This document shows, one piece after another, positions 13,319 through 27,440 of a DNA stretch of 64,000 nucleotides. Below the pieces are notes generated by a model. That model searched no databases. It was not told where the DNA came from and was given only the letters and a program-made list of their open reading frames with translations. Origin of the DNA: a virus; the IMG/VR virus record IMGVR_UViG_3300034121_000940, positions 1 through 64,000 of that record. The stretch is one strand, 5' to 3'. How positions within the stretch are numbered: the first letter of the stretch is position 1; each line of letters begins with the position of its first letter. Both the position numbers and the translations under genes were made by a program.

Positions 13319-16300
13319 TTAGAGTATAAATGGATAAGTTACATCACCATAAACAAATCCTCCTTCTTTAGCATTATGTGCATCAAAAGCACTTCTACCA
13401 GAGTTACCTCCACCTGAAGGAGCATTTTTCATCTTATCAGACACACATCTTTGAATTGTTGGTTCATCTTTATAACGCTTAGAACATTCTTCATAAAATG
13501 CTTGCTCATTATCTCCAGACATTTCAGGTTTAACTTGTTTAGCTTTAGTTTCATCAAATGTAACACGACCTCCACTTGGAGCATCAACTTGATATTGTGG
13601 ATACAATTGATTTAAAGCATCTGTTTTCATCATGTTTGTTATACCTGATGTAGTTTGATTCAGTAAGTTATTTCTTAATGCTCTCTTAGTATTATCATAC
13701 TGTTGATTAGAAATAGTATTCTGATCATATAATTTTTGTTGAGCAGCAGTATTTAATTGTTGTTCCTGATTTTCAACATTAGCAATATTAGTTTCAAACT
13801 GATTAGCTAAGTTTACATTAGCATTATTATATTTAGCCATTACATCAGCAGCATTTTTACTTGCCGCTCCCATAACACCAGATGCTCTAGCAGATAATGC
13901 TTGTGGTCCTGCAAACTGTGCAAGAGCTTGACTTTGTATATTAGCTTGTTCAGCATTAGCAGCTAGTTCTCTTGTTGGATCTAAGAATGTAGGTTTTGGT
14001 GTTTTTAAATCATACTTAGCAGCCCAAGGCATGTATTTCTTAGCACCCATCAAATCACCAAAAGCACCAGCTATTTTCATTTTATCTTGCAACCACATTT
14101 CAGGTTCAGTTTCTTGAGCAGCAACAGCAGGAGCTTCACCTTTTTCTTCACAAGGAGGACATGTACCATCAGCATTTTTTTCTGGAACATATTTACTTCC
14201 ATCAGCTTTAATACATTCAGGACATGGATTAGCTGCCGCAGCTTCTTCTTTCTTTTCTTCAGGTAAATTTTCAAATGTACCTGTATCAACAGCAGGATAA
14301 ATTGATTGCCCTAACTGTGTATTTCCTGAGTAACCTTCAACAGCAGATAATGCTTTATATTCATCACCATATTTTTGTGCCATAAATGGATTGTCTTTAG
14401 CACCACTAAGAACTTCTCTACTATTAACACCTTTTCCTAATAATTGATGCATTGCATATGTATCATCATCATTAAATTTATCATATTTACCAGCTTTTTT
14501 ATCTTGTTGCATTCTAGCAATACCATGATAAGCAGCTTGTTCAATTCCTGTATCAAGACTTCTATCATCATGTATCTTAACACCTAAATTTTTTGCAATA
14601 GCTTTTTTATCTGTGAAACCTTTAGCTTTGTATTCTTTTAATTTTTTTTCTGCTTCAGCTCTATCAACACCACTCTTTACCATTTCATCAACACTCTTTA
14701 AACCTGAAGCATCATCTTTTAGATAATGAGTTTCTATACCAGCTTGTTTAATTTTATCTGCTCTTTCTTCACTGTTTAAAAAACCATCTATTAATTGTTG
14801 ATCATTTGGGGTTTTCTTTTTATACTGATCTCTTATATTTGGTGATGCTACATCTCTATCTTGAAGGGCTTCACGAGTTTTTTCAAGAAATTGTTTTCTA
14901 ACTTCTGATTTAGGATTAGAAAATTCTTTTCTTAAATATTTCATTTTTGTATCACTGATAGCTTTAAGATCTGATAAAGATAAATTTTCCTTTTTGCTTG
15001 GTGGTGTATATTTAGCAGGCTTACCATTCAGCATTATTTTTGGTTCTTGACCTTTATTTCTTTCTTTCCACATATAGTATTTTTTATTAGCTGTTTCAGG
15101 ATCTAAACCTGTAACATCTAATGTACCATCAGCAGCTGGAGCACCTCCTGCAGGACTAGTAGAGCTAGCACCTTCATCACCTTGATATGTTCTTAAAGCA
15201 CCTCCTCTAGCATACATAGGAGATTTAGATCTACCCATATAGTTTCTAGGATTAGCTCCCATAGCCATACCATATTCTGCTTCAGGTATATCTTCTTCAT
15301 ATGGAAAATCATAACCACCCATAGCCATACCATACTGAGCCATTTCCAATTGTTCACATGGTACACATTTCTTTTGTGATACACCTTGTACAATTACTTT
15401 TTTCATACAAGGACAGTTTTCTAAATTTTTTTTATATTTTTCTAAATAGTTTTCTGGTGTTGATTGTTTATGTGGTAAAGGTTCACCAGTTTCAGGATCA
15501 AAGTATGTTCCATGATCTTTAGGATTTATTTCTTCTATTAAATCATTATATTTTTTAATTTGATCTTTATTCAGTGGTCCTTCTCCAACTGGAATACTTT
15601 CAGTTTTACCTTTTAATTCATTATATTTTTGAACAGCTTTAAGATACTCTTGCATACCAGGTTGATTTCTATCATAATTAATATTATCAATCTTAGTTGG
15701 ATCTAATTCTATACCTAATTGAGCAAAAGGTAAAGTATAACCACCCATAGACATACCGTACTGTGCAGTAGGTTGAGCAATTGGTTGTCCTTCATTCATC
15801 TCTTCAGCTTGAGCATATTGTTGAGCAAAGTCTGGATCTTGTTCTTCAGTATTTTGAAGTTCTTCTGCTTGTTTTATTTTAGCATCTATTTTACTTTCAA
15901 ATTGTTTGATAGAAGGATCAACAAATGTTTCTTCAGTATATTGATTTTCTGCAGTCATAGGTTGTGCTACAGCTGGCATACCTTGAGGGAATCCTTTCTT
16001 ACCTTCTTGTACTAATGCTAAAGCAGCAAGTTTAGTCTGATAATTTTTAATCATCAGCTCTGCAGTTTTTCTATCTATATGATCAGAGTCTGGATCTTGA
16101 AGAATCTTTCTGTATTTCTCAATGTCATATTGTTTAGCAAGTTCAGCAGGAGTATAACTTTTCTTACCCGACTTACCTTTACCAAACATTTGTAAGAACT
16201 CAGGTTCTTTAATGTTCATACCTCTGAAGTCACTGTATATAAAAGTGTCATCAGGTAAGTTTAATGGAACACCACCACCAGAGTGTCTTGGACCTTTGAT

Positions 16301-16540
16301 AGTTTTGTGTTCTGGCATTCCATCACCATTGATATCACCATATACAGTTTCACCACCTTCAGCTTCAAGATTAGCTTCTTCTCTAGGAACAGCAGTAATA
16401 TATTTGCTGACTCTCAGTTTTGGTTTACCAATATAAGTATTATAGTCTGCACCACCCATTGCTGGTACATCATTAGCTAAAGAACCTTGTACTTGGTATC
16501 CTGTTCTAGCTTGCGGTAGTTTTTTAATTCTTACTTTCAT
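13319..16540 (-). CDS. Large cargo-type protein with QYGMxMGG repeats and paired Cys knuckles (1073 aa)
   Basis: The protein opens with a basic tail and LPQARTG at residues 8-14, close to the KAQxG motif of other proteins here. A QYGMSMGGY-type element recurs at residues 260, 402 and 422 (the last as EYGMAMG). Two paired-cysteine motifs are present: CPC (376-378) with CVPC (392-395), and CPEC (773-776) with CPPC (794-797). Each could hold one zinc ion or form disulfides. The C-terminal third is Ala/Gln/Asn-rich helix. Its ATG at 16540 is 4 bases after the upstream stop. An internal virion protein is the likely role from position, since neighbours on both sides are large cargo-type proteins. 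I recognise no enzyme signature. Confidence 0.75.
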   Translation of the reverse strand: MKVRIKKLPQARTGYQVQGSLANDVPAMGGADYNTYIGKPKLRVSKYITAVPREEANLEAEGGETVYGDINGDGMPEHKTIKGPRHSGGGVPLNLPDDTFIYSDFRGMNIKEPEFLQMFGKGKSGKKSYTPAELAKQYDIEKYRKILQDPDSDHIDRKTAELMIKNYQTKLAALALVQEGKKGFPQGMPAVAQPMTAENQYTEETFVDPSIKQFESKIDAKIKQAEELQNTEEQDPDFAQQYAQAEEMNEGQPIAQPTAQYGMSMGGYTLPFAQLGIELDPTKIDNINYDRNQPGMQEYLKAVQKYNELKGKTESIPVGEGPLNKDQIKKYNDLIEEINPKDHGTYFDPETGEPLPHKQSTPENYLEKYKKNLENCPCMKKVIVQGVSQKKCVPCEQLEMAQYGMAMGGYDFPYEEDIPEAEYGMAMGANPRNYMGRSKSPMYARGGALRTYQGDEGASSTSPAGGAPAADGTLDVTGLDPETANKKYYMWKERNKGQEPKIMLNGKPAKYTPPSKKENLSLSDLKAISDTKMKYLRKEFSNPKSEVRKQFLEKTREALQDRDVASPNIRDQYKKKTPNDQQLIDGFLNSEERADKIKQAGIETHYLKDDASGLKSVDEMVKSGVDRAEAEKKLKEYKAKGFTDKKAIAKNLGVKIHDDRSLDTGIEQAAYHGIARMQQDKKAGKYDKFNDDDTYAMHQLLGKGVNSREVLSGAKDNPFMAQKYGDEYKALSAVEGYSGNTQLGQSIYPAVDTGTFENLPEEKKEEAAAANPCPECIKADGSKYVPEKNADGTCPPCEEKGEAPAVAAQETEPEMWLQDKMKIAGAFGDLMGAKKYMPWAAKYDLKTPKPTFLDPTRELAANAEQANIQSQALAQFAGPQALSARASGVMGAASKNAADVMAKYNNANVNLANQFETNIANVENQEQQLNTAAQQKLYDQNTISNQQYDNTKRALRNNLLNQTTSGITNMMKTDALNQLYPQYQVDAPSGGRVTFDETKAKQVKPEMSGDNEQAFYEECSKRYKDEPTIQRCVSDKMKNAPSGGGNSGRSAFDAHNAKEGGFVYGDVTYPFIL
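15258..15766 (-). repeat. Three QYGMxMGG peptide repeats in a cargo-type protein
   Basis: The DNA CCCATAGCCATACCATA and close variants occur at about 15258-15274, 15318-15334 and 15744-15759, encoding Q/E-YGM-A/S-MG at residues 422, 402 and 260. The tracts are imperfect, so they are old. Confidence 0.75.
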
Positions 16541-16544
16541 CTTA

Positions 16545-19181
16545 TTAAGATTCTAAATATTCAACTTCTCCTCCGTTAGCAAGGAATGCTTCTAATTCTT
16601 CTGGTGTCATGTCTACTTCATCACCTTCAGTATAACCACCTTGTTCCATATAACCACCTGACTGACCATATGCAAATCTACCCATAGTTTCTTGACCGGT
16701 TTGATCAGGTCTAAACATACCTGTTTGTTGACCATATGCTACATAATCACCTCTATCTTTATTAGTAGATGCACCATAAAGATTATCAGAAGTAAAATTA
16801 TTAGCATACATCTCAGCTTGTTTCTTATTAGCATCAATATCTGACATAATACCTGTAAACATATCAATGCCAGAATTTAATTTATTAACAAAATTCTGAC
16901 CATCAAACTCTCTTTTTCTTTGTACATCTTGAGCAACTAAAGTGTCATCAGCAGGATTTCCAAAATCTTCAGAAGTAATTGTTTGACCTTTAGTTTGATT
17001 AGGATCCATTTCAACTGTTTTAACTTTTCCAGCATCAGGATTAGTTGGTACATTTTGATTCATGAATGAAGCAGAAGAACCCATTAATGTATTTGGATTT
17101 TCTTGTGGTTTCAACATACCTACTAAATTACCTGAAGTTGCAGTAGGATCAGATGCAGCAGATAATTTATTTGTAGGAGATTTAACAGCTCCTGCAATTT
17201 GGTATTTACCAAGTACACCACCATAACTAAAACCACGTTTACTTCTAATCATACTTTGCTCAAACATATCAGCTTCTTCAGCTTCTTGAGCTTCTCTTTC
17301 AGCTTCTTCCTGTGCTATGGTATCTTTTGATTTACCCTGTATAAATTGATGTAAAGTAGTTGGATACATTTCTGATAAAACCTGATTTTCTTGTTTTGTT
17401 GGTATAAATTCTTTTAAATTTTCATACTTAATAGGTTGATACTCTGGGAATTCAATACTATTTACATCTGGTAACTCACTGTTTGAAGTTTGTGCATATT
17501 GATTCATTATAAGATCTTCTAATGCAGGCATCTCAGGTAATTCTGGTACAGAAACTAATCTAGGTAAATCATAAGCTTTACCCTTTGAATCATGTGTTTT
17601 TATAACAACAGCTTCATATGGTGATGGTGAAGAATAATCAGTACCATTGTTTCTTAAATCTCTTTTTAGATCCTTCTCAGAATCATACATGTATTTTTCA
17701 GGAGACTTTTTATCAAAATCAGCTTGTCTTCTAGTTTGTTCAACACCTCTTTCAAATTCTCTACCTAGTTGTCTTTCACCTCTTTTTATTTGTCTTTTTG
17801 CTTTAGCTGGTAAACTATCCCATAATTCTTCAGACATACCATGTTTTTGATCTTTGGCAACAGCTTTTTCATAAGCAGCTTTAATCTCTTGTCCAGGTGT
17901 ATTTGGAACTTGCTTACCAGTTCCTTTACTATAATAGTCAGTCCATTCTTTTGGTCTACCTAATATACCTCTTTTATGTACAGTTCTTGCTACAGGAGTT
18001 AATCCAGATACAGGATCTTTATACAAAGCACCAGTCTTAACATCATATGGATTATTTGCAATATAATTTTCCTTTCCTAAAATTGCATCTCCTAATTTAT
18101 TAATAAAACCTTTTTGAGCTTGAGGCATATCAAAACCACCATAGTTAAACATGTCAGGTTGATTCTCTCCTATATAACCACCTTGTTGAGCAACCGGTTC
18201 AAATGATCCCATCTGACTTCCTTTTTTTCTACTTGCAGCAAGTTCTTGTGCAGATTGAATTAATTCAGGATTTTTAGAATTCATCATTTTTTCATACAAT
18301 GCATCTACAGCAGCTTTAGTAGAAATTTCTTTTAGCTTATCAGTAAATTGACTTTTTATTTTTGATACATCATCAGTAAGAGTATCTTTCTTATTACCTT
18401 GACCTATACTTTTAGATTCTTCAGCATCACCACCTTCTTGTTTTCTAACAAGTGCTAATACATTTTTAGTAAAGTTCTTTTTAGAACCACCATGTTTGTA
18501 ATAACCCGCATCATCACCTAGCATATCCCATTCTATAGGAGTGTAATCTGCTGTATACTCACTAATATCTTTTCCAAAATCAGAAAAGTCATCAGCTTTA
18601 TCTGCAGTATTTGCTACAAAATTAGAAAGTGTAGCAAGTCTATCTTCTAAACTAACATCTTCATCTTCATTAGAACTTAACTGATCATATGAAATTATTC
18701 CACCATCTTGAAATTCTGCTTCACTATTAGCAATTACATCTGGCTCTTCTTCATTAGCATAACTGTTATAATAATCCATAGCAGGATTACTTTCTTCCTC
18801 TTCTTCTGCTGGTTGTTCTTCTATTGATTGATATTCTGTTTGACCTATTTTTGATTCTTCAGCTTTGCCTTGTTCTTCTTCAGGTTGCTCTTCTTCTTCT
18901 GGAGCTTCCATCTCTTGCATAGCTTGAGTTAAAATAGGATATGCTATTTCTTTAGGTATACCTTTTGAAATCAATAACTTATAAACTTCTTCAGGTTCCA
19001 TATCATTGCTCAAGGCACCAGTTACATATTGTTTTAAGGCTTCCATTTGTTTTTGAGCCATTACATTTTCACTGGTAGTTTCAGCACCCATTTGAGCTTT
19101 TTGTAAAAACTTTTTTGTCTTGTTTATATATTCACCTTGTCCATTTGGAGCTTTGTAAATTCTAACAGTTCTTCTTTCCAT
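16545..19181 (-). CDS. Acidic Gln/Glu-rich cargo-type protein ending in a GG module (878 aa)
   Basis: The N-terminus is basic and carries KAQMGAE at residues 28-34. An acidic Glu-rich region (about 90-170) follows, then several short Gly-Gly tags such as FQDGGII, YKHGGSK, VAQQGGYIG and AQKGFINK. The last 31 residues (848-878) hold a GG..VDMTPEELEAF..GGEVEY module that also occurs twice in the upstream 904-residue protein. The composition suggests a largely disordered protein with short binding or processing tags. The start at 19181 is preceded by a 58-base gap with a TAGTATATTAAATTATAA element. Virion cargo is inferred from position; no known domain is evident. Confidence 0.75.
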   Translation of the reverse strand: MERRTVRIYKAPNGQGEYINKTKKFLQKAQMGAETTSENVMAQKQMEALKQYVTGALSNDMEPEEVYKLLISKGIPKEIAYPILTQAMQEMEAPEEEEQPEEEQGKAEESKIGQTEYQSIEEQPAEEEEESNPAMDYYNSYANEEEPDVIANSEAEFQDGGIISYDQLSSNEDEDVSLEDRLATLSNFVANTADKADDFSDFGKDISEYTADYTPIEWDMLGDDAGYYKHGGSKKNFTKNVLALVRKQEGGDAEESKSIGQGNKKDTLTDDVSKIKSQFTDKLKEISTKAAVDALYEKMMNSKNPELIQSAQELAASRKKGSQMGSFEPVAQQGGYIGENQPDMFNYGGFDMPQAQKGFINKLGDAILGKENYIANNPYDVKTGALYKDPVSGLTPVARTVHKRGILGRPKEWTDYYSKGTGKQVPNTPGQEIKAAYEKAVAKDQKHGMSEELWDSLPAKAKRQIKRGERQLGREFERGVEQTRRQADFDKKSPEKYMYDSEKDLKRDLRNNGTDYSSPSPYEAVVIKTHDSKGKAYDLPRLVSVPELPEMPALEDLIMNQYAQTSNSELPDVNSIEFPEYQPIKYENLKEFIPTKQENQVLSEMYPTTLHQFIQGKSKDTIAQEEAEREAQEAEEADMFEQSMIRSKRGFSYGGVLGKYQIAGAVKSPTNKLSAASDPTATSGNLVGMLKPQENPNTLMGSSASFMNQNVPTNPDAGKVKTVEMDPNQTKGQTITSEDFGNPADDTLVAQDVQRKREFDGQNFVNKLNSGIDMFTGIMSDIDANKKQAEMYANNFTSDNLYGASTNKDRGDYVAYGQQTGMFRPDQTGQETMGRFAYGQSGGYMEQGGYTEGDEVDMTPEELEAFLANGGEVEYLES
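16548..16640 (-). repeat. GG module at the C-terminus of the 878-aa protein
   Basis: Residues 848-878 read GG..VDMTPEELEAF..GGEVEY. It parallels two modules in the upstream 904-residue gene. Confidence 0.6.
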
Positions 19182-19190
19182 GTGTAAAGA

Positions 19191-19216
19191 TTATAATTTA
19201 ATATACTAAAAATAAA
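19191..19216 (-). promoter_or_regulatory. Recurrent TAGTATATTAAATTATAA element before the 878-aa gene
   Basis: The minus strand reads TTTATTTTTAGTATATTAAATTATAA about 10 bases before the ATG at 19181. It shares 15 bases with the element before the scaffold-like gene. Confidence 0.38.
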
Positions 19217-19239
19217 TTTATTGTTTAAACTTTAAAAAT

Positions 19240-21954
19240 TTAATCAACATCTTCTACAGTATACCCTTGTTTTATGTATTCTTCAATCTCATTAGGAGTA
19301 AGTTCTAAAACCATACCACCCTTTTTCATTTTACTTTTTTTGGAAGCATTTTTATTATTTAACATAACAGCAGATCCTACAGCTACTGGTGCAGCGGCCC
19401 AAGCCTTGTTAACTAATTTTCTTAGATCATCAGAAGTTACAGATTTATCTTTAAGCTGCATCATACCTCTTATATCTTTATAACCTCTAGGTACTCTTTC
19501 ATTACCTAAACCTGCATGCTCTTCTTTCAACCAATTATTCCAATCATCTTTAAAAAGATTCCATTCATCAGGAGTTATTTCTTTATTTTTAGAAACACCA
19601 TATTTATTATTTAAATAGTCTTTCATTCTTAAAAATCTAACTTGTTGTTCATAATCCTTGTTATGATAATTAGCATTTTTACCTGATTTAACTAAATTTA
19701 AATGTGGATAATTTTTATACTTAGGCATTGCGCTAAATGTATTTTTACTAACTGGAGATAAACCATGTTTGATTTCATGATCAAGTATATGTAAAAAGTC
19801 ATGTTTAGTTTTAATATCCTTATCTGAACTATTAATTGTTATTTTAGGTTTACTTAATGTTTTACCAAAAAGTTTAGTTCCTCTTTTATGTGATCCATAG
19901 GAATTATCTGCAGTGTGTGTATCAAAATTAAATTCAGTTTGTTTAAGATTATTAACATAATCTTTTATTTCTTTTTTAATTTTTTCTGGACTTTCTCCAG
20001 TAGTAGCTTGTCTTCTTTTAATATATTCAGGATGATTTAAATACTCCAGATTTTGATTAATAACTTGATTAATTTCTGCTTCTGAAACATCAAAGCCATG
20101 TTTGCTTTTATTAGGTTTGTTTTTAATATTAAGCTTAATACCAAAATCTTTCACAGGAGTTTTTTGTAATATAAACTCATTATCTGGGTGATTAATTAAA
20201 GTATTTGGTATATATTCATTTGTTAATTCTTTAGCTGATAACTGTACAGAAGAAGGTTTTTTATTTAAATTTTTAAAATATTTAGAAGCTTTTGAAAGTT
20301 TATTACTTGTACCTAAACCTGAAAAGTTTAATAAGTTTAGTACATGTTCTGAAGCAGCATTTCCTACATTACCTAAAGTAGGATTATCATAAGCTTTTTT
20401 AGTAGCTTTATTTACATCACTTTCTTTGTCAAGATAATCTTGTATACCAAAACCTACACCAGAAGCTGTAAGAGCATTGTTTAATGTAAGTCCTGGTAAT
20501 GATTTTGGAGCTTTATTAAAAACAGCTTTTGTACCAGCTTTAGTAGCTTGTACTAATGGTGACTTAACAGCTTTTGCTAATGTTGAACCCGCACCTTTTA
20601 CTAAAGCACCAGCACCTTTAACACCAGCACTTGTCATACCAATAGGTAAAGTCCAAAAGTCATCTACAGGAGCAGCCATACCAGATGATCTGTTTTCCCA
20701 GTCTGCTCTTTTCTTAAAGTCATCTTTTATAAATTGAGGTAATCCAGGTTTTACTTTTTCATAATATTTACCGTCTTTAGTCTTAACCTGTATTACTGTA
20801 TCTCCGTTAGCCTTAGTAATTGTATTTGTTATAGTACCATCTTTACTTCTATGTGTTTTTATATTACCACCTTCTTGTTTAACCCATGGATATTTTTCAG
20901 ATTTCTTATACTCATCCATTTTTTTCTTTAAACCATATGTATCTACAAACTGAGCTACATCAAGAGGAATACCGTTTGTAGACTCACCATAACCATAAAC
21001 TTCAGGATCTAAAATTCTACCGTAAAGTCTATATGGTTGATAGCCTTTTGGATATTTTGATTCTTGTTGTTCAGGTTTAGTAACTTTTGATATGTTATCA
21101 ACTTTAACTATTTCTTTATTATCAGGTGTTTCTTTAATTGATGATACTTCTTTTTTTAATGTAACAGGTTGCATAGGTTTTTTATAAATAAGTATCTGGC
21201 CTTTATAATCTTTACTTACACCAACTGGTTTAATTTTTGTATTTTTTTGTAAATTAGTTGCAACTCTATTTTTTATAAAAGTATTTAAAGTACGTACAGC
21301 TTCTTTTTTATTATAATTAGGAAATGCTACACCATATGTTTTAAGTTGTTCTTCTTTTTCTTTGTTCCCATAATTATATAAATTTAAACTATCATTATAC
21401 ATCTTTTTTCTGTATGCATATTCTTTTGGATCAGATATTTGTATTACACCTTTCTGAGCTTGATTAAGTTCTGGTACAGATATATCTTCTACTATATAAC
21501 CACCTTTTCTGTATTCTTCTATTTCATCATCTGTAAGATCCATATACATACCACCATCTTGAAAGTAGTTTACATTTGGATCAAATATTCTTTTAGAATA
21601 GTCTTTGAATAATGGGCCTATTTCCATAAGCTTATTCTTACCCATTATACTCTTAGTCTTTCTTTTCTTTCTTTGACCCCCTTTTCTCATCTGTGGATAT
21701 TCATCTACATAGTCTGCTCCAGGAAAAGTGTATTCTCCTCCCGGTTGCATCATCTGTTGCTGACCTGTATTGGATATTCCTAATACTGGATAATCAACAC
21801 CTTTCATAGTAATGTTTGATGAAGGTATTCTTGTAATTTCTCCAGGATGTTCCCACTGACCTCTAGGATCAGTGATCACATCTTTAGATTTCTTAGGAGC
21901 TTTAGCTTTGTTTAACTCAGCCATAGCTTGTAAAAGGGTCTTTTTATTATACAT
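19240..21954 (-). CDS. Cargo-type protein with zincin HEIKH motif and two GG modules (904 aa)
   Basis: The start overlaps the stop of the 1828-residue tail gene by one base (TAATG). Residues 131-158 carry FQDGG..LTDDEIEEY..GGYIVED, and the last 28 residues (877-904) carry a second copy. QAQKG follows the first copy at about 165-169. An Ala/Gly/Lys-rich segment near 440-490 may be membrane-active. A zincin signature, HEIKH, lies at 726-730 within LHILDHEIKHG, and YEQQVR (E769) about 40 residues later could give the third zinc ligand. This suggests a metallopeptidase domain of about 200 residues near the C-terminus. The role might be cleavage of virion or host proteins on entry; this is inference from the motif and the position in the cargo block. 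Confidence 0.78.
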   Translation of the reverse strand: MYNKKTLLQAMAELNKAKAPKKSKDVITDPRGQWEHPGEITRIPSSNITMKGVDYPVLGISNTGQQQMMQPGGEYTFPGADYVDEYPQMRKGGQRKKRKTKSIMGKNKLMEIGPLFKDYSKRIFDPNVNYFQDGGMYMDLTDDEIEEYRKGGYIVEDISVPELNQAQKGVIQISDPKEYAYRKKMYNDSLNLYNYGNKEKEEQLKTYGVAFPNYNKKEAVRTLNTFIKNRVATNLQKNTKIKPVGVSKDYKGQILIYKKPMQPVTLKKEVSSIKETPDNKEIVKVDNISKVTKPEQQESKYPKGYQPYRLYGRILDPEVYGYGESTNGIPLDVAQFVDTYGLKKKMDEYKKSEKYPWVKQEGGNIKTHRSKDGTITNTITKANGDTVIQVKTKDGKYYEKVKPGLPQFIKDDFKKRADWENRSSGMAAPVDDFWTLPIGMTSAGVKGAGALVKGAGSTLAKAVKSPLVQATKAGTKAVFNKAPKSLPGLTLNNALTASGVGFGIQDYLDKESDVNKATKKAYDNPTLGNVGNAASEHVLNLLNFSGLGTSNKLSKASKYFKNLNKKPSSVQLSAKELTNEYIPNTLINHPDNEFILQKTPVKDFGIKLNIKNKPNKSKHGFDVSEAEINQVINQNLEYLNHPEYIKRRQATTGESPEKIKKEIKDYVNNLKQTEFNFDTHTADNSYGSHKRGTKLFGKTLSKPKITINSSDKDIKTKHDFLHILDHEIKHGLSPVSKNTFSAMPKYKNYPHLNLVKSGKNANYHNKDYEQQVRFLRMKDYLNNKYGVSKNKEITPDEWNLFKDDWNNWLKEEHAGLGNERVPRGYKDIRGMMQLKDKSVTSDDLRKLVNKAWAAAPVAVGSAVMLNNKNASKKSKMKKGGMVLELTPNEIEEYIKQGYTVEDVD
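19243..19326 (-). repeat. GG module at the C-terminus of the 904-aa protein
   Basis: Residues 877-904 read KKGGMVLELTPNEIEEY followed by KQGYTVEDVD, a close copy of residues 131-158 of the same protein. Confidence 0.7.
21481..21564 (-). repeat. Internal GG module of the 904-aa protein
   Basis: Residues 131-158 read FQDGGMYMDLTDDEIEEY followed by KGGYIVED. A QAQKG motif follows seven residues later. Confidence 0.7.
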
Positions 21955-24900
21955 TATCTTAAAGAAATTTCATTTTTACTGTTACTAATTTTCAAAATAA
22001 TATTTGTGTTACCAGATATATTTTTCTTTAAGTTAACAAAACTCAGATAATGTCTGAATTTTTTTCTTTGAAATTCTGGTTTTAAGTAATTAAGATTATT
22101 CTGATTTAACACTCTTCTAAATCCATCAGGTTCTGTAATCCATGTATTTAAATTTGGATAAGTACCTGATAGTATTGTTGTACCTGGTATGTAAGGTCCT
22201 TGTCCAGCAGGATAAGTTGATCCTATTGGAAATTCTCCTCTATCATTTGTTATATCCCAAAACTGACTAAATCTATATTTGTTTTCTTCTTTGGTATATA
22301 AAATATCAAATGAAGTTAGTGTATTAGGATTTACTCTTGGAAATTGTCTTACAAGTGGTAAATCATTTTTTGGATATATATTTAAATTTAGGTAACCAGA
22401 TACTTGTTCTGAGTTATATATAACAGCCGTATCAAAGTTATAATCTAATACATGATGTGAATCTACACAATTATCTGTTTTTCTATAAGCCTCAAGAACA
22501 TATTCTATAGATCTTGTAGTAGTAACTGTTTGACCTGTTACAATTGGAATATCAATTTCACATGCATAGTCAATACCATAATAGTTACAGTATTTATCAC
22601 ATATCCAATTATGTCTCCAACCTCCAGTACCTTTTGTAGATACAAACACATCTTTAGTAGGCATTAATAAATCTGGATGCCAGTCATGAAAACTAATCCA
22701 GAATTGATTTTTAGGGTCATAACTTACAGTCCATGAAGCATCTCTAAATAATGTTGGATCACCTAATTTAAATTGAGCAGTAGTATTATCACCAATAATA
22801 AAGTAATCACCTGTACCATCACCTTTAAGTGGTATATATCTTACAATACCTTTGAATGAATCTTTAAGTTGATAGTCTTTTTTACAAAAATATAAGATTG
22901 TATTTGTATTATCAAATACAGATTGACAGCCAATACCAGCTACTGGATTATCTACATATGGATATAATGGGAAATCAGTAAGAAGTTTGTACGGTAAGAA
23001 TAGTGTGAACCACCATTTCATACCCTGCTGAGAAATTTCCTGAAGTCCTTCACCAATTGAGAATATCTTACCTGCTGCTTGAGACATATAGTATATACCT
23101 ACTGGTGTAGATATTACAGATAGTCTGTTTTGAGAAGCTCCATATTCATATGGTTTATCTGCATTAGATAACTGCTGTGGTGGTTGGCTAAATAAACCTC
23201 CGTCACCTAGAGTAACTTTAGTACCTAAATCAGTTTGAAGAGTATCTACACCCTGATACATTATAGGACTATCATTCTTAAATGTAATTACAATACCTGA
23301 TTTATTTATAGACTTAACACCACTAACTTGAGACTTGAATGCTTTATAGTTATTAACTAAGTAAACAAACCAACTATCTTTTACTGCTTCATCCTGTTGA
23401 GGTAATGAGTAAATTATTCTATTTGGATAATAAGTATAACATAAGTCAGCTACATTAGGATCATAGTATCTACTTTGTATAGTACCTAATGAAAAATATT
23501 GATTATATAACTTAGATACACTCAATGAGTAATCATACTGATTGGTACTATTTACACCCATTATATTTGGGTTAGTATCAAACATTGCATTGTAATCTGT
23601 AAAATTATATGGGTTATAATATTTTTTTGCAATCTCTTCAGGTTGTGTTCTAAAGTCAACTAACACTTCTGACTCAACAAAAAAATCTTTTATAGATGAA
23701 ACTGCTAAATAAAAATATGAATTTTTACAAACAAAAAATCCCGGATAATTACTAGCTGTATCATTTGAATAGTTATATTTTTTTGAACCATCAACATAAT
23801 CAAGATTATAAAAACTAGATGGTAAAACACCTTCACCTGGAGGAGTAGTAGGTACACCAGCAATAAGAGACACTAAATTACTAAAATCAATTGCTCCCGC
23901 TAAATCCTGTACATTATACAAACGGCTATTTAATCTAAATCTTGGATTTGGAATCATACTTCTTAAATAATAGTTATATTCAAAACCATCAGGTTGATCA
24001 TATAACCAATCATAAAAGAAACACATTGAATCTTTTTCAGTATATCTGTTAATATAAGTGTCTCCACCAAACATGACAGGAGATCTAGCAATTACTCTTT
24101 TAGTTATATTTTTAGAATTACATACAACATTTGATAAATTAATTGTATAATCAGATAGCTTTTGCTCACATGTACCAATAGGTAATTGTTTAATAGAATC
24201 TAATTGACCATATTGGTTTCTTACTCTACCCCTTAAAGCACCATAGTGACTTTGAATTGGTAATGAAAAAGTTCTATCAATATTAGATGTAAAATCTGGT
24301 AAATTTGTTGGATCAGATAAATAAGGTGTAAAACCAGCTTGTAGTAATGTACCAAGTGTAGTTAAAGATTTATCCCCATCTAATAACTTAGGACCTTTGT
24401 TTTGATTATTACCTGCTTTAGTTCTAACAACAACTTTTGGTGATCTTTTTATATTGTTGATATTATAAGATTTCCATGCTCCAGTACTATCTTGATATCT
24501 TGAAACAGACTGAATATTATCTCTTAGATAAAATCCATCTTCCATTTTAAATCTTGTAGTATCAGCATTTGCATTTTTACCCATATTAGAATAAAAACCA
24601 TAGGCTTTGTGTTGTAAAGCTTGTTGTTTGTAACTAGTTACTGCATATATTAAATCTAATGTTACTCTGGCACCTTCAGAAAAATAATATGCAAAATTCA
24701 TTATATTATTAACAATTGCCATTGGTTTAGGTAAATATTGAGATTTAGATAATTCTGTTTCAACAACTTGTGATGTATATACAGAACCTGCATTACTTAC
24801 ATTTGAACTTGCTGATGTTGTATATAAATTTTCATATACACCACCTCCAACAAGAGCATCTCCTACTGAACCACCAGTACTATTATATAATCCTACTGAT

Positions 24901-27440
24901 GTTAGTAAACTACTCATAATACCAGAAAAAGCAGCACCATAGTTTGTAGCATTTTTTACATCAGTAGTTACTTTACCACTATCATCATAAAAATCACCAC
25001 CACTAAGAGGTCTAAATGTTATTTGTGCAGCCATTGCAGGACCTACACCAGTAAGTGTATTTGCACCAACACTACTTACAAAACCACCTATTTCATGATT
25101 TTTTAAAGGATTACCTTTAACTTCTGGTATTTCAATATCTTGATATCCTGGACCTTGTGTTACTAACTTTCTTTTACCAACAGATGAAATTATTATTTCA
25201 GCAAATCCAGCAAAAATCATAGCTGTAATAACAACATCAGATAATAATTTAAATTTAGGATGGTCACTTGGTATATTAAAGTTTTGTTGTGAGTAACCAT
25301 TTAATTGACCGTATGTTTTAAATTCAGTAGTTGACAAAAAAGGTGTTGTCATCATAGTATCCGGTGAATGGAAACTAAAAATATCTTCTGGCACAGATTG
25401 ATTATATAATGAACTTACACCAGCTTTAATATATGGATCATTATATCCAGCTACATTTGTTCCTAAAGTATTACTTAAAGGTTTAATTGTATTAAAAGGA
25501 TAATTAGCATACAAACCTGTTGCACTTTGACCACCTGTTCCTGCAATTTGATAAGTTCTAAAATTATTAACCATCCCTTTAGCAACAATACTTTTGTTAC
25601 CTTCTCTAGAACCCCTTAATATTTCATACCCTACAATTCCAGGTATATCATTACCATCATTATCTTTAGGTACAGTGATGTTTTCAAAATACACACCCAT
25701 CAATCTAATAAAGTAATCATTAGAATTGTTCTTAGGATTTGCATTTGATCTAAAATGAGTTATTAAATCTGAGTTATTATTATTAGCAAAGTTTTCAGGA
25801 AATTTATGATGTCTTATATATTTACCACATAAATCAAACTCTTCTGGTTTCAAAGCTGTTTGCTGACCTGTCCAACAATGTGCACTTGGATTCCATATAT
25901 CAGGTCTATTATCAGGATACTTTTCAGTTGATTCCCAGTATCCCATATCTCCTGTTGCTATAACAACACCTCCATCATCAGTAACAGTACCATTAATTCC
26001 TGAAACATTATCTATTGTAGCAGTATTATAAACTTCAAATACTTTATCATCTGAATATAATGTATTTTGATTACCTTGTAATGATTCATTTTCTTTTTTA
26101 GAACCAACACCAGGAACATTAAAATCTTTAGGAGGTCTTCCAGGAATATGATATGTTGAAGTTTTATCTCCTGTGTTATACACCCATCTAATGAAAAATG
26201 AATATACTTCATCTCTCATATAGTTAGTTTTATTACCACCTTTCATATAGTAATCCGCAGGATATTCTACAGAAGCCCACTTAGTTTTAATCAAGTTAGC
26301 TAAAGGTTGATAATTAAAATCAAACTTACTTCTAGGTCCTATTCTTAACAAGTAATTATTTACTTCAGCCATTTGATCTGAAGTTTCATATACTGGAGTT
26401 TGTAAAGGTAATTGTTCAAGCGGTATAGTTATGTTACCAGCATTATCAATTTGATCAATACTCATACTTGAAGTATTTGTTGAGTATATACCCATTAACT
26501 GAGCTACAGTCTGTTGGTTAACACATTTTACTATTACCAATTGAAACTCATCAAAGTTATCTTTATCAGCTTCAATATCTAATGTTAAAGAACCTTGTAA
26601 ATCTTGTGGGGAATAAATAAACTGATAGTTACTTTGAGCAAAGTAATCAGTTACTTTTTGTCCTTTTATAGTATATGCAATAAGGGCAAAATATGAACCA
26701 TTAGCAAGTGTTCCTCCTTGTTGTCCTCTTTTTAATTTAAGACATGGAGTTTTCATTAGTCTAGCTAATCTAATATGATCACAATCTAATTTATTTGTAT
26801 TCTCACATATTGTACAGTCATTAACAACTTTACATTCTTCTACCCATTGTACATTAGGCCAAAGTATTTTACTTCCTCCTGGTCCTACATAGTAGTTTGC
26901 GTTAACTCCTTCTGATGTGATGTAAGAATAATCTGGTCCAGGCCATGTTTGTGGATCCCCAATATTTATAAATCTATCTGGATTTAATCCATCAGACCAA
27001 TATACTTGCCAAGTACAATCTTCTTTTAATCTTGATACACCAGATATTAAATATCTTTTATCAAAATTTAAGCAAGCATCTATTACAATAGGTTTATAAG
27101 TACAGTTTTCTTCTTCAAATAAACCTATCTCTGCACTTACAGGTTGACCATTAAAATTATGACCAACTGTAAAAATCACCCACTTATCTGAAAATAAATA
27201 TATAGTACCTATTACTAATTTTTCAGTAGCTGCAGCTGGCATAAAAGCACCAGTATTAAAACATAAGTAATTAGCAGATTCATTTGATATTGAACCTACT
27301 TTACCTGTCTTAGAGTTATTAACCATGTTGACAGCATGTGTCCACATACCGTCTGTAACATAAGAAGGATCTGAATCTTTATTCAGACCCTTTATGAAAC
27401 TATCGGTTACATTTTGGGAAGTATCTTGCATATCTGCCAT
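21954..27440 (-). CDS. Large tail protein, stabilisation/muzzle type (1828 aa)
   Basis: This long beta-rich protein begins with a segment typical of phage tail stabilisation proteins (FIKGLNKDSDPSYVTDGMWT at residues 13-32, then repeated strand patterns such as WVIFTVGHN and WQVYWSDGLNPDRFINIGDP), consistent with a beta-propeller start. A Cys cluster lies near 205-235 (CKVVNDCTICENTNKLDC). Position directly downstream of the ring-type genes matches the P22 gp10-like stabilisation protein, called muzzle in the gut crassvirus structural work. It would form the distal opening of the short tail. Its ATG is one base past the stop of the 350-residue gene. The role is assigned from position and fold-like features, not from a search. 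Confidence 0.72.
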   Translation of the reverse strand: MADMQDTSQNVTDSFIKGLNKDSDPSYVTDGMWTHAVNMVNNSKTGKVGSISNESANYLCFNTGAFMPAAATEKLVIGTIYLFSDKWVIFTVGHNFNGQPVSAEIGLFEEENCTYKPIVIDACLNFDKRYLISGVSRLKEDCTWQVYWSDGLNPDRFINIGDPQTWPGPDYSYITSEGVNANYYVGPGGSKILWPNVQWVEECKVVNDCTICENTNKLDCDHIRLARLMKTPCLKLKRGQQGGTLANGSYFALIAYTIKGQKVTDYFAQSNYQFIYSPQDLQGSLTLDIEADKDNFDEFQLVIVKCVNQQTVAQLMGIYSTNTSSMSIDQIDNAGNITIPLEQLPLQTPVYETSDQMAEVNNYLLRIGPRSKFDFNYQPLANLIKTKWASVEYPADYYMKGGNKTNYMRDEVYSFFIRWVYNTGDKTSTYHIPGRPPKDFNVPGVGSKKENESLQGNQNTLYSDDKVFEVYNTATIDNVSGINGTVTDDGGVVIATGDMGYWESTEKYPDNRPDIWNPSAHCWTGQQTALKPEEFDLCGKYIRHHKFPENFANNNNSDLITHFRSNANPKNNSNDYFIRLMGVYFENITVPKDNDGNDIPGIVGYEILRGSREGNKSIVAKGMVNNFRTYQIAGTGGQSATGLYANYPFNTIKPLSNTLGTNVAGYNDPYIKAGVSSLYNQSVPEDIFSFHSPDTMMTTPFLSTTEFKTYGQLNGYSQQNFNIPSDHPKFKLLSDVVITAMIFAGFAEIIISSVGKRKLVTQGPGYQDIEIPEVKGNPLKNHEIGGFVSSVGANTLTGVGPAMAAQITFRPLSGGDFYDDSGKVTTDVKNATNYGAAFSGIMSSLLTSVGLYNSTGGSVGDALVGGGVYENLYTTSASSNVSNAGSVYTSQVVETELSKSQYLPKPMAIVNNIMNFAYYFSEGARVTLDLIYAVTSYKQQALQHKAYGFYSNMGKNANADTTRFKMEDGFYLRDNIQSVSRYQDSTGAWKSYNINNIKRSPKVVVRTKAGNNQNKGPKLLDGDKSLTTLGTLLQAGFTPYLSDPTNLPDFTSNIDRTFSLPIQSHYGALRGRVRNQYGQLDSIKQLPIGTCEQKLSDYTINLSNVVCNSKNITKRVIARSPVMFGGDTYINRYTEKDSMCFFYDWLYDQPDGFEYNYYLRSMIPNPRFRLNSRLYNVQDLAGAIDFSNLVSLIAGVPTTPPGEGVLPSSFYNLDYVDGSKKYNYSNDTASNYPGFFVCKNSYFYLAVSSIKDFFVESEVLVDFRTQPEEIAKKYYNPYNFTDYNAMFDTNPNIMGVNSTNQYDYSLSVSKLYNQYFSLGTIQSRYYDPNVADLCYTYYPNRIIYSLPQQDEAVKDSWFVYLVNNYKAFKSQVSGVKSINKSGIVITFKNDSPIMYQGVDTLQTDLGTKVTLGDGGLFSQPPQQLSNADKPYEYGASQNRLSVISTPVGIYYMSQAAGKIFSIGEGLQEISQQGMKWWFTLFLPYKLLTDFPLYPYVDNPVAGIGCQSVFDNTNTILYFCKKDYQLKDSFKGIVRYIPLKGDGTGDYFIIGDNTTAQFKLGDPTLFRDASWTVSYDPKNQFWISFHDWHPDLLMPTKDVFVSTKGTGGWRHNWICDKYCNYYGIDYACEIDIPIVTGQTVTTTRSIEYVLEAYRKTDNCVDSHHVLDYNFDTAVIYNSEQVSGYLNLNIYPKNDLPLVRQFPRVNPNTLTSFDILYTKEENKYRFSQFWDITNDRGEFPIGSTYPAGQGPYIPGTTILSGTYPNLNTWITEPDGFRRVLNQNNLNYLKPEFQRKKFRHYLSFVNLKKNISGNTNIILKISNSKNEISLR

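Follow-up and report, generated by a model that had tools for sequence, protein, structure and literature searches.

Polyvalent proteins of phages and conjugative elements (Iyer et al., 2017; PMC5512222) and the MuF polymorphic toxins of temperate phages (Jamet et al., 2017; PMC5576092) provide the main points of comparison for the gene considered here, the first gene after the muzzle gene in a crAss-like phage (gene A). With polyvalent proteins, A shares the character of a large, multidomain phage protein of variable architecture encoded near virion genes, as well as zincin-like peptidase, ART, GNAT and lysozyme domains, with ART-PolyVal itself present in one locus (L087). Regarding the criteria for polyvalent proteins, several unrelated enzymatic domains per polypeptide are present in A (loci L057, L103 and L087), as is adjacency to virion genes, A standing directly after the muzzle. 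Unlike the polyvalent proteins of PMC5512222, a paper that mentions neither crAss nor SET domains, A is one syntenic gene in which a fixed N-terminal domain (N-domain), a repeated module and GG junctions frame the payload. MuF toxins share with A the fusion of a constant virion-associated domain to exchangeable effectors; A differs from them in coming from a crAss-like group and in having its payload bracketed on both sides, and no MuF domain was detected when the A proteins were scanned with Pfam. By kind, A belongs with the polyvalent proteins, and in its logic it resembles the MuF toxins. For its packaging and delivery with the DNA, the one indication is indirect, a homologue of the N-domain detected by mass spectrometry (MS).

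Within the crAss-like phages, the cargo proteins gp45 and gp46 of crAss001 (Bayfield et al., 2023; PMC10172136) correspond to A and B by position, lying directly past the muzzle and ahead of the RNA-polymerase-associated proteins. The crAss001 locus differs in that the module does not occur there and in that A, B and C have no sequence relation to gp45 (hhalign probabilities of no more than 2.9 for the A, B and C families), so that gene position is the sole tie of A and B to a solved cargo protein. In the literature searched, which covered few subscription papers and preprints, no description was found of a crAss-like locus with a fixed frame and a shared C-terminal module. crAss-like phages are very abundant, and the proteins that they carry into cells, as well as the way in which these are loaded, are largely unknown. 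A single syntenic gene of this kind amounts to many natural chimeras, combining a constant frame, dozens of payloads and a defined 28-residue candidate loading element, which makes the loading question directly testable.

The window, i.e. the whole stretch of DNA that was analysed, comprises 64,000 nucleotides (positions 1 to 64,000) of the IMG/VR record IMGVR_UViG_3300034121_000940, a viral record of 121,672 bp. The match of its muzzle gene to PF25731 identifies the source as a crAss-like phage, and the genes and the domain on which the analysis centres are the following:

21954..27440, minus strand: muzzle protein (1828 aa; Pfam PF25731 crAss_MUZ, E 1.5e-24), the upstream neighbour by which the locus is identified
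19240..21954, minus strand: gene A (904 aa), first after the muzzle, a mosaic cargo-type protein (ORF; N-domain family, body and modules)
21553..21954, minus strand: constant N-terminal domain of A, residues 1-134, ending in ..YFQDG/G (alignment A1; homologue in phi4:1 gp040)
16545..19181, minus strand: gene B (878 aa), second after the muzzle (ORF; position directly downstream of A)
13319..16540, minus strand: gene C (1073 aa), third after the muzzle, ending in a distinct conserved GG-peptide (GGFVYGDVTYPFIL)

The genes follow the order muzzle-A-B-C-D-E, with A directly adjoining the muzzle gene, and gene E resembles crAss001 gp47 (hhalign probability 94.6, E 6.5e-8). Membership in the Crassvirales or their close relatives is reflected in the presence of the muzzle gene and in the location of the cargo genes between it and the RNA-polymerase-associated proteins. 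The N-domain alignment A1 contains 16 invariant columns over 14 sequences. In the gene C family, GG lies within the last 26 residues in 30 of 32 complete members, and the C-terminal peptide reads GGFVYGDVTYPFIL or, in a second group, GG..GYVMGSNVFPFMFT; with this conserved GG-led end of C, GG-type C-termini occur in three successive genes (A, B and C). Searches of named phages with the A and B proteins (tblastn) gave no matches, no related loci were retrieved with B as the query, and Pfam and PHROGs returned only weak sub-threshold matches for the window A and B proteins and for the modules; the C-terminus of B reached E 0.026 against SutA-RBD, which is likewise sub-threshold. Among 84,980 genomes of bacteria and archaea, none matched the N-domain, which hence offers no hint of a host.

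The initial annotation had reported a Gly-Gly module of about 28 residues three times in A and B, including both C-termini, and ORFs and profile matches place all three copies where it had located them, on the minus strand:

21478..21564, minus strand: module copy 1, internal in A, residues 131-159 (FQDGGMYMDLTDDEIEEYRKGGYIVEDIS; profile match E 3.9e-18)
21448..21483, minus strand: linker ISVPELNQAQKG, which closes the internal module; the same or a similar linker follows most internal modules
19243..19332, minus strand: module copy 2, C-terminus of A, residues 875-904 (KMKKGGMVLELTPNEIEEYIKQGYTVEDVD; profile match E 2.5e-18)
16548..16649, minus strand: module copy 3, C-terminus of B, residues 845-878 (MEQGGYTEGDEVDMTPEELEAFLANGGEVEYLES; profile match E 8.9e-20)

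That the 878-residue protein ends in a GG-module was correct, whereas its last residues are not GGEVEY, the actual end being GGEVEYLES. Within the 121,672-bp record, the A-type profile matched the two A copies and no others, and the B-type profile matched the B copy together with a weak echo in A and no others; since these copies are among the seeds of the profiles, the relatives are the real test. The restriction to A and B, together with recurrence at the same positions in relatives, bears out the assertion that the module is too specific for chance. Its pattern is short, strand-helix-strand-like and common to A and B, and comparison with solved structures (PDB) revealed no relative, weak PDB and Pfam matches covering the helix part only. 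The pN/pS of the module core codons is 0.34 in A and 0.26 in B, a rough ratio with the synonymous sites of A near saturation, and indicates that purifying selection acts on the cores. The linker after internal modules has the consensus VPELxxAQxG, and QxG occurs within 40 aa after an internal module in 37 of 52 cases, compared with 19% of random stretches. Double-glycine leaders follow the consensus LSxxELxxIxGG, with GG as the cleavage site; a reading of the module as such a leader was rejected on account of a spacing one or two residues longer than the consensus and of C-terminal A copies with QGY or AGY instead of GGY.

The search with the A-type (A3) and B-type (A4) profiles covered the source genome, 18 viral records related to it and four named phages. 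Of the 18 related records, 17 have the module in A or B positions, with E-values mostly of about 1e-11 to 1e-20; in the 18th (G017/L021), the sequence stretch stops right past the muzzle. Apart from an extra gene between A and B in a few genomes, no other gene in these records matched at a meaningful E-value. In Leptolyngbya phage Lbo-JY46, it is the second gene past the muzzle that carries a B-type module (one of the seeds of A4), and searches with both profiles found no module in Cellulophaga phi4:1, csAssE-Sib or crAss001. A module-only scan of 2.9 million viral contigs returned 132 distinct module proteins, 117 of them with a C-terminal copy; these are A, B or A-type proteins in crAss-like loci, many cut at the locus edge, with the single exception of L158 (L159 and L160 were retrieved through the same match as this unrelated sequence). 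Moreover, genes directly downstream of complete A, picked by position and not by module, end in the module in 48 of 52 cases. Matches thus stay within the genes in cargo position, which lie between the muzzle and those of the RNA-polymerase region, and are strongly C-terminal, in line with the idea of the initial annotation, and the module is conserved in orthologues; neither of the outcomes that it had named as contrary to the idea, a spread of matches over unrelated proteins or a lack of conservation, was therefore observed.

The frame of A consists of the fixed N-domain of about 134 residues, which ends in FQDGG, together with the modules and a short linker, and encloses variable bodies. 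The N-domain alone retrieved 80 loci, and the complete non-redundant A proteins (n=59) range in length from 363 to 2789 aa. A C-terminal module is present in 41 of the 59, most of which also have one internal copy: two modules, one of them C-terminal, occur in 33, one C-terminal module in 6 and three modules in 2. The other 18 have no recognised C-terminal copy, and at least five of these terminate in a visibly related but divergent variant, for example GGSIDYELGDEIDEATMQQLKKLGYTFEKI. Another mobile block (GG..KT..SKDGT.TN......G..V.QVKTKDGKYYEKV) likewise begins at GG and shifts position among A proteins, lying at aa 360-403 in window A and at aa 131-173 in L001. The AlphaFold2 (AF2) model of full-length A has a pLDDT of 42.5, and a Foldseek search with it gave no match with E <= 0.001.

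Gene A is a polymorphic mosaic, in which cassettes are gained, lost and swapped inside a constant frame, a feature that the initial annotation did not report. Between loci L001 and L011, the muzzle is 99%, B 100% and the N-domain 96% identical, and the A bodies are largely unrelated, being alignable over only about half of the shorter one. The DNA of the two loci is 98.2% identical through A nucleotide 402 (the FQDGG codons), where the identity stops, and 99.3% identical again from a point at most 2-3 residues from the GG of the C-terminal module; between those points, the two have nothing in common but the internal module (107 nt, 96%) and a single block of 210 nt (94%). Across close pairs, 30% of the breakpoints outside the N-domain and modules lie within 5 residues of a GG, compared with an expectation of 5.2% (at most 10.9% in 2000 draws), and after clustering into 65 contexts the proportion is 23.9%, compared with 5.1% (at most 13.8% in 500 draws). 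Close to the modules, breakpoints show no significantly greater proximity to GG than positions drawn at random, and the association with GG is therefore carried by the N-domain edge and by the other junctions.

Regarding the payload, HExxH occurs 26 times in A bodies compared with 0.6 expected from shuffles, distributed over 20 of 68 proteins and many unrelated contexts. Individual A proteins match Amidase_2 (6.1e-19), Glucosaminidase (1.5e-8), Phage_lysozyme (3.4e-5), SET (1.5e-9), ART-PolyVal (1.2e-10) and, weakly, GNAT (1.4e-4) in Pfam, the majority of bodies being without Pfam assignment. Multi-enzyme proteins include L057 (lysozyme, amidase and two HExxH), L103 (SET and a weak GNAT) and L087 (ART-PolyVal and HExxH), and window A has a single HExxH region only:

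19369..20274, minus strand: zincin-like (HExxH) region of A, residues 561-862, with HEIKH at 726-730 and the E of EQQVR at 769 (alignment, AF2)

In a five-sequence alignment (21-60% identity to the window), HExxH and the downstream EQQVR are invariant (H166, E167, H170 and E209 in alignment numbering). The AF2 model of the region (pLDDT 63) places strands first, then the HExxH helix and then the E helix, the element order described for polyvalent-protein zincins (PMC5512222), and Foldseek returned no match with E <= 0.001. The conserved residues and the order of secondary-structure elements point to a zincin-like region. More broadly, A bodies represent a source of uncharacterised phage enzymes, likely acting on bacterial walls and proteins. 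SET domains, known chiefly as histone-lysine methyltransferases, occur in gene A of L007, L096 and L103, and interrupt or precede the N-domain in L007 and L103.

A link to the virion, which the initial annotation had assumed, holds for protein A by way of a homologue: gp040 of Cellulophaga phage phi4:1, whose virion structural annotation derives from MS/MS, carries a counterpart of the A N-domain (hhalign probability 79, E 1.5e-5; Lbo-JY46 N-domain against gp040 by tblastn, 41% over 62 aa, E 5e-3), which supports the assignment of A as a virion protein. Both gp040 and its phi17:2 equivalent have the N-domain homologue in common with A; gp040 differs in lacking the module and in a remainder unlike A.

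The explanation we propose, whose chances we regard as about even, is that A and B are virion cargo, A being a polymorphic, polyvalent-protein-like mosaic and the module a C-terminal docking element. A and B would be virion-associated, ejection-type cargo in the place of the crAss001 cargo proteins, with the N-domain putting A in the virion and the module, probably a strand-helix-strand patch, serving as a short C-terminal docking or loading element. Recognition of the module by one shared partner, located in capsid, portal or tail, would ensure that any body in front of it is carried, and the payload of peptidoglycan hydrolases, zincins, SET, ADP-ribosyltransferase and acetyltransferase domains may act on the cell wall or host proteins at entry. 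Docking by the module is the least secure part of this explanation. A simple C-terminal address tag would have no use for the second, internal copy that most A proteins possess, and the 18 of 59 complete A proteins without a recognised C-terminal copy, as well as phi4:1 gp040 without a module, speak against the explanation.

The GG motifs could instead reflect processing, with QxGG and AQxG as protease sites and A as a polyprotein that either its own zincin or a phage protease cuts into module-ended pieces. In 68 A proteins, QxGG occurs 155 times compared with 22.6 expected, an approximately seven-fold over-representation, and AQxG 68 times compared with 19; 14 of the 22 QxGG/AQxG sites of this genome fall in A, B and C, internal modules are followed by a conserved linker, which contains QxG in 37 of 52 cases, and processing by zincin-like peptidases has been proposed in the polyvalent-protein literature (PMC5512222). 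However, HExxH is present in only 20 of the 68 A proteins, which excludes self-cleavage by such a domain as a general mechanism, and GG motifs recur in B and C too. Cleavage at GG is possible, and processing as the explanation of the module is unlikely. It is distinctly improbable that A is a modular polyprotein payload, whose QxGG/AQxG junctions would serve both as evolutionary exchange points and as sites of cleavage in the virion or host, and whose released pieces would each keep the loading module; if true, crAss-like phages would possess a plug-in system for loading the effectors that they inject.

Also unlikely is a small structural or self-association element, such as a cap or an A-B contact, that has no loading role. 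The short strand-helix-strand-like pattern common to A and B is consistent with it, as are the lack of a relative in solved structures and a full-length A model too weak to judge (pLDDT 42.5), but the module is kept as a separate block while adjoining bodies change fully, which is unexpected for a cap packed on one body; an A-B contact through the module is possible. We consider it very improbable that the module and the GG junctions are kept mainly as recombination-guiding DNA homology, with protein function incidental: breakpoints do cluster at GG, and swapped segments are flanked by conserved blocks down to about 83 nt, yet it is the amino acids that are retained, with synonymous sites free (pN/pS 0.34 and 0.26). 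LTxxEIxxY is a common helix start, and the weak PDB and Pfam matches cover the helix part only, but chance or generic helix-cap similarity is scarcely credible for a module that holds a fixed position in dozens of orthologues and is absent elsewhere in the same genomes, a conservation that already refutes it.

Variation in the locus extends beyond the body of A. Lbo-JY46 (L025, PP438436) has a cyanobacterial host on record, the same muzzle-A-B-C-D-E order and the B module; either the crAss-like range extends beyond Bacteroidota or this host assignment is in need of checking. A in L004 (15403-19877) and B in L003 (20679-23787) are each split into two ORFs by a frameshift or stop, possibly through assembly errors. 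Between C and D, L018 (8822-9457) and L022 (7841-8482) contain a small GIY-YIG homing endonuclease-like gene starting MATY[IL]QSS.GIYKIT, the first codons of which resemble the start of gene D. The extra gene between A and B (L007:14460-17717, L066:14566-16875, L072:15814-19002 and L047:12408-15209) starts with MAKYRI, MARYKI or MAKFKI and carries an A-type module, C-terminal in three of the four, and in these genomes A itself closes with a divergent variant of the module.
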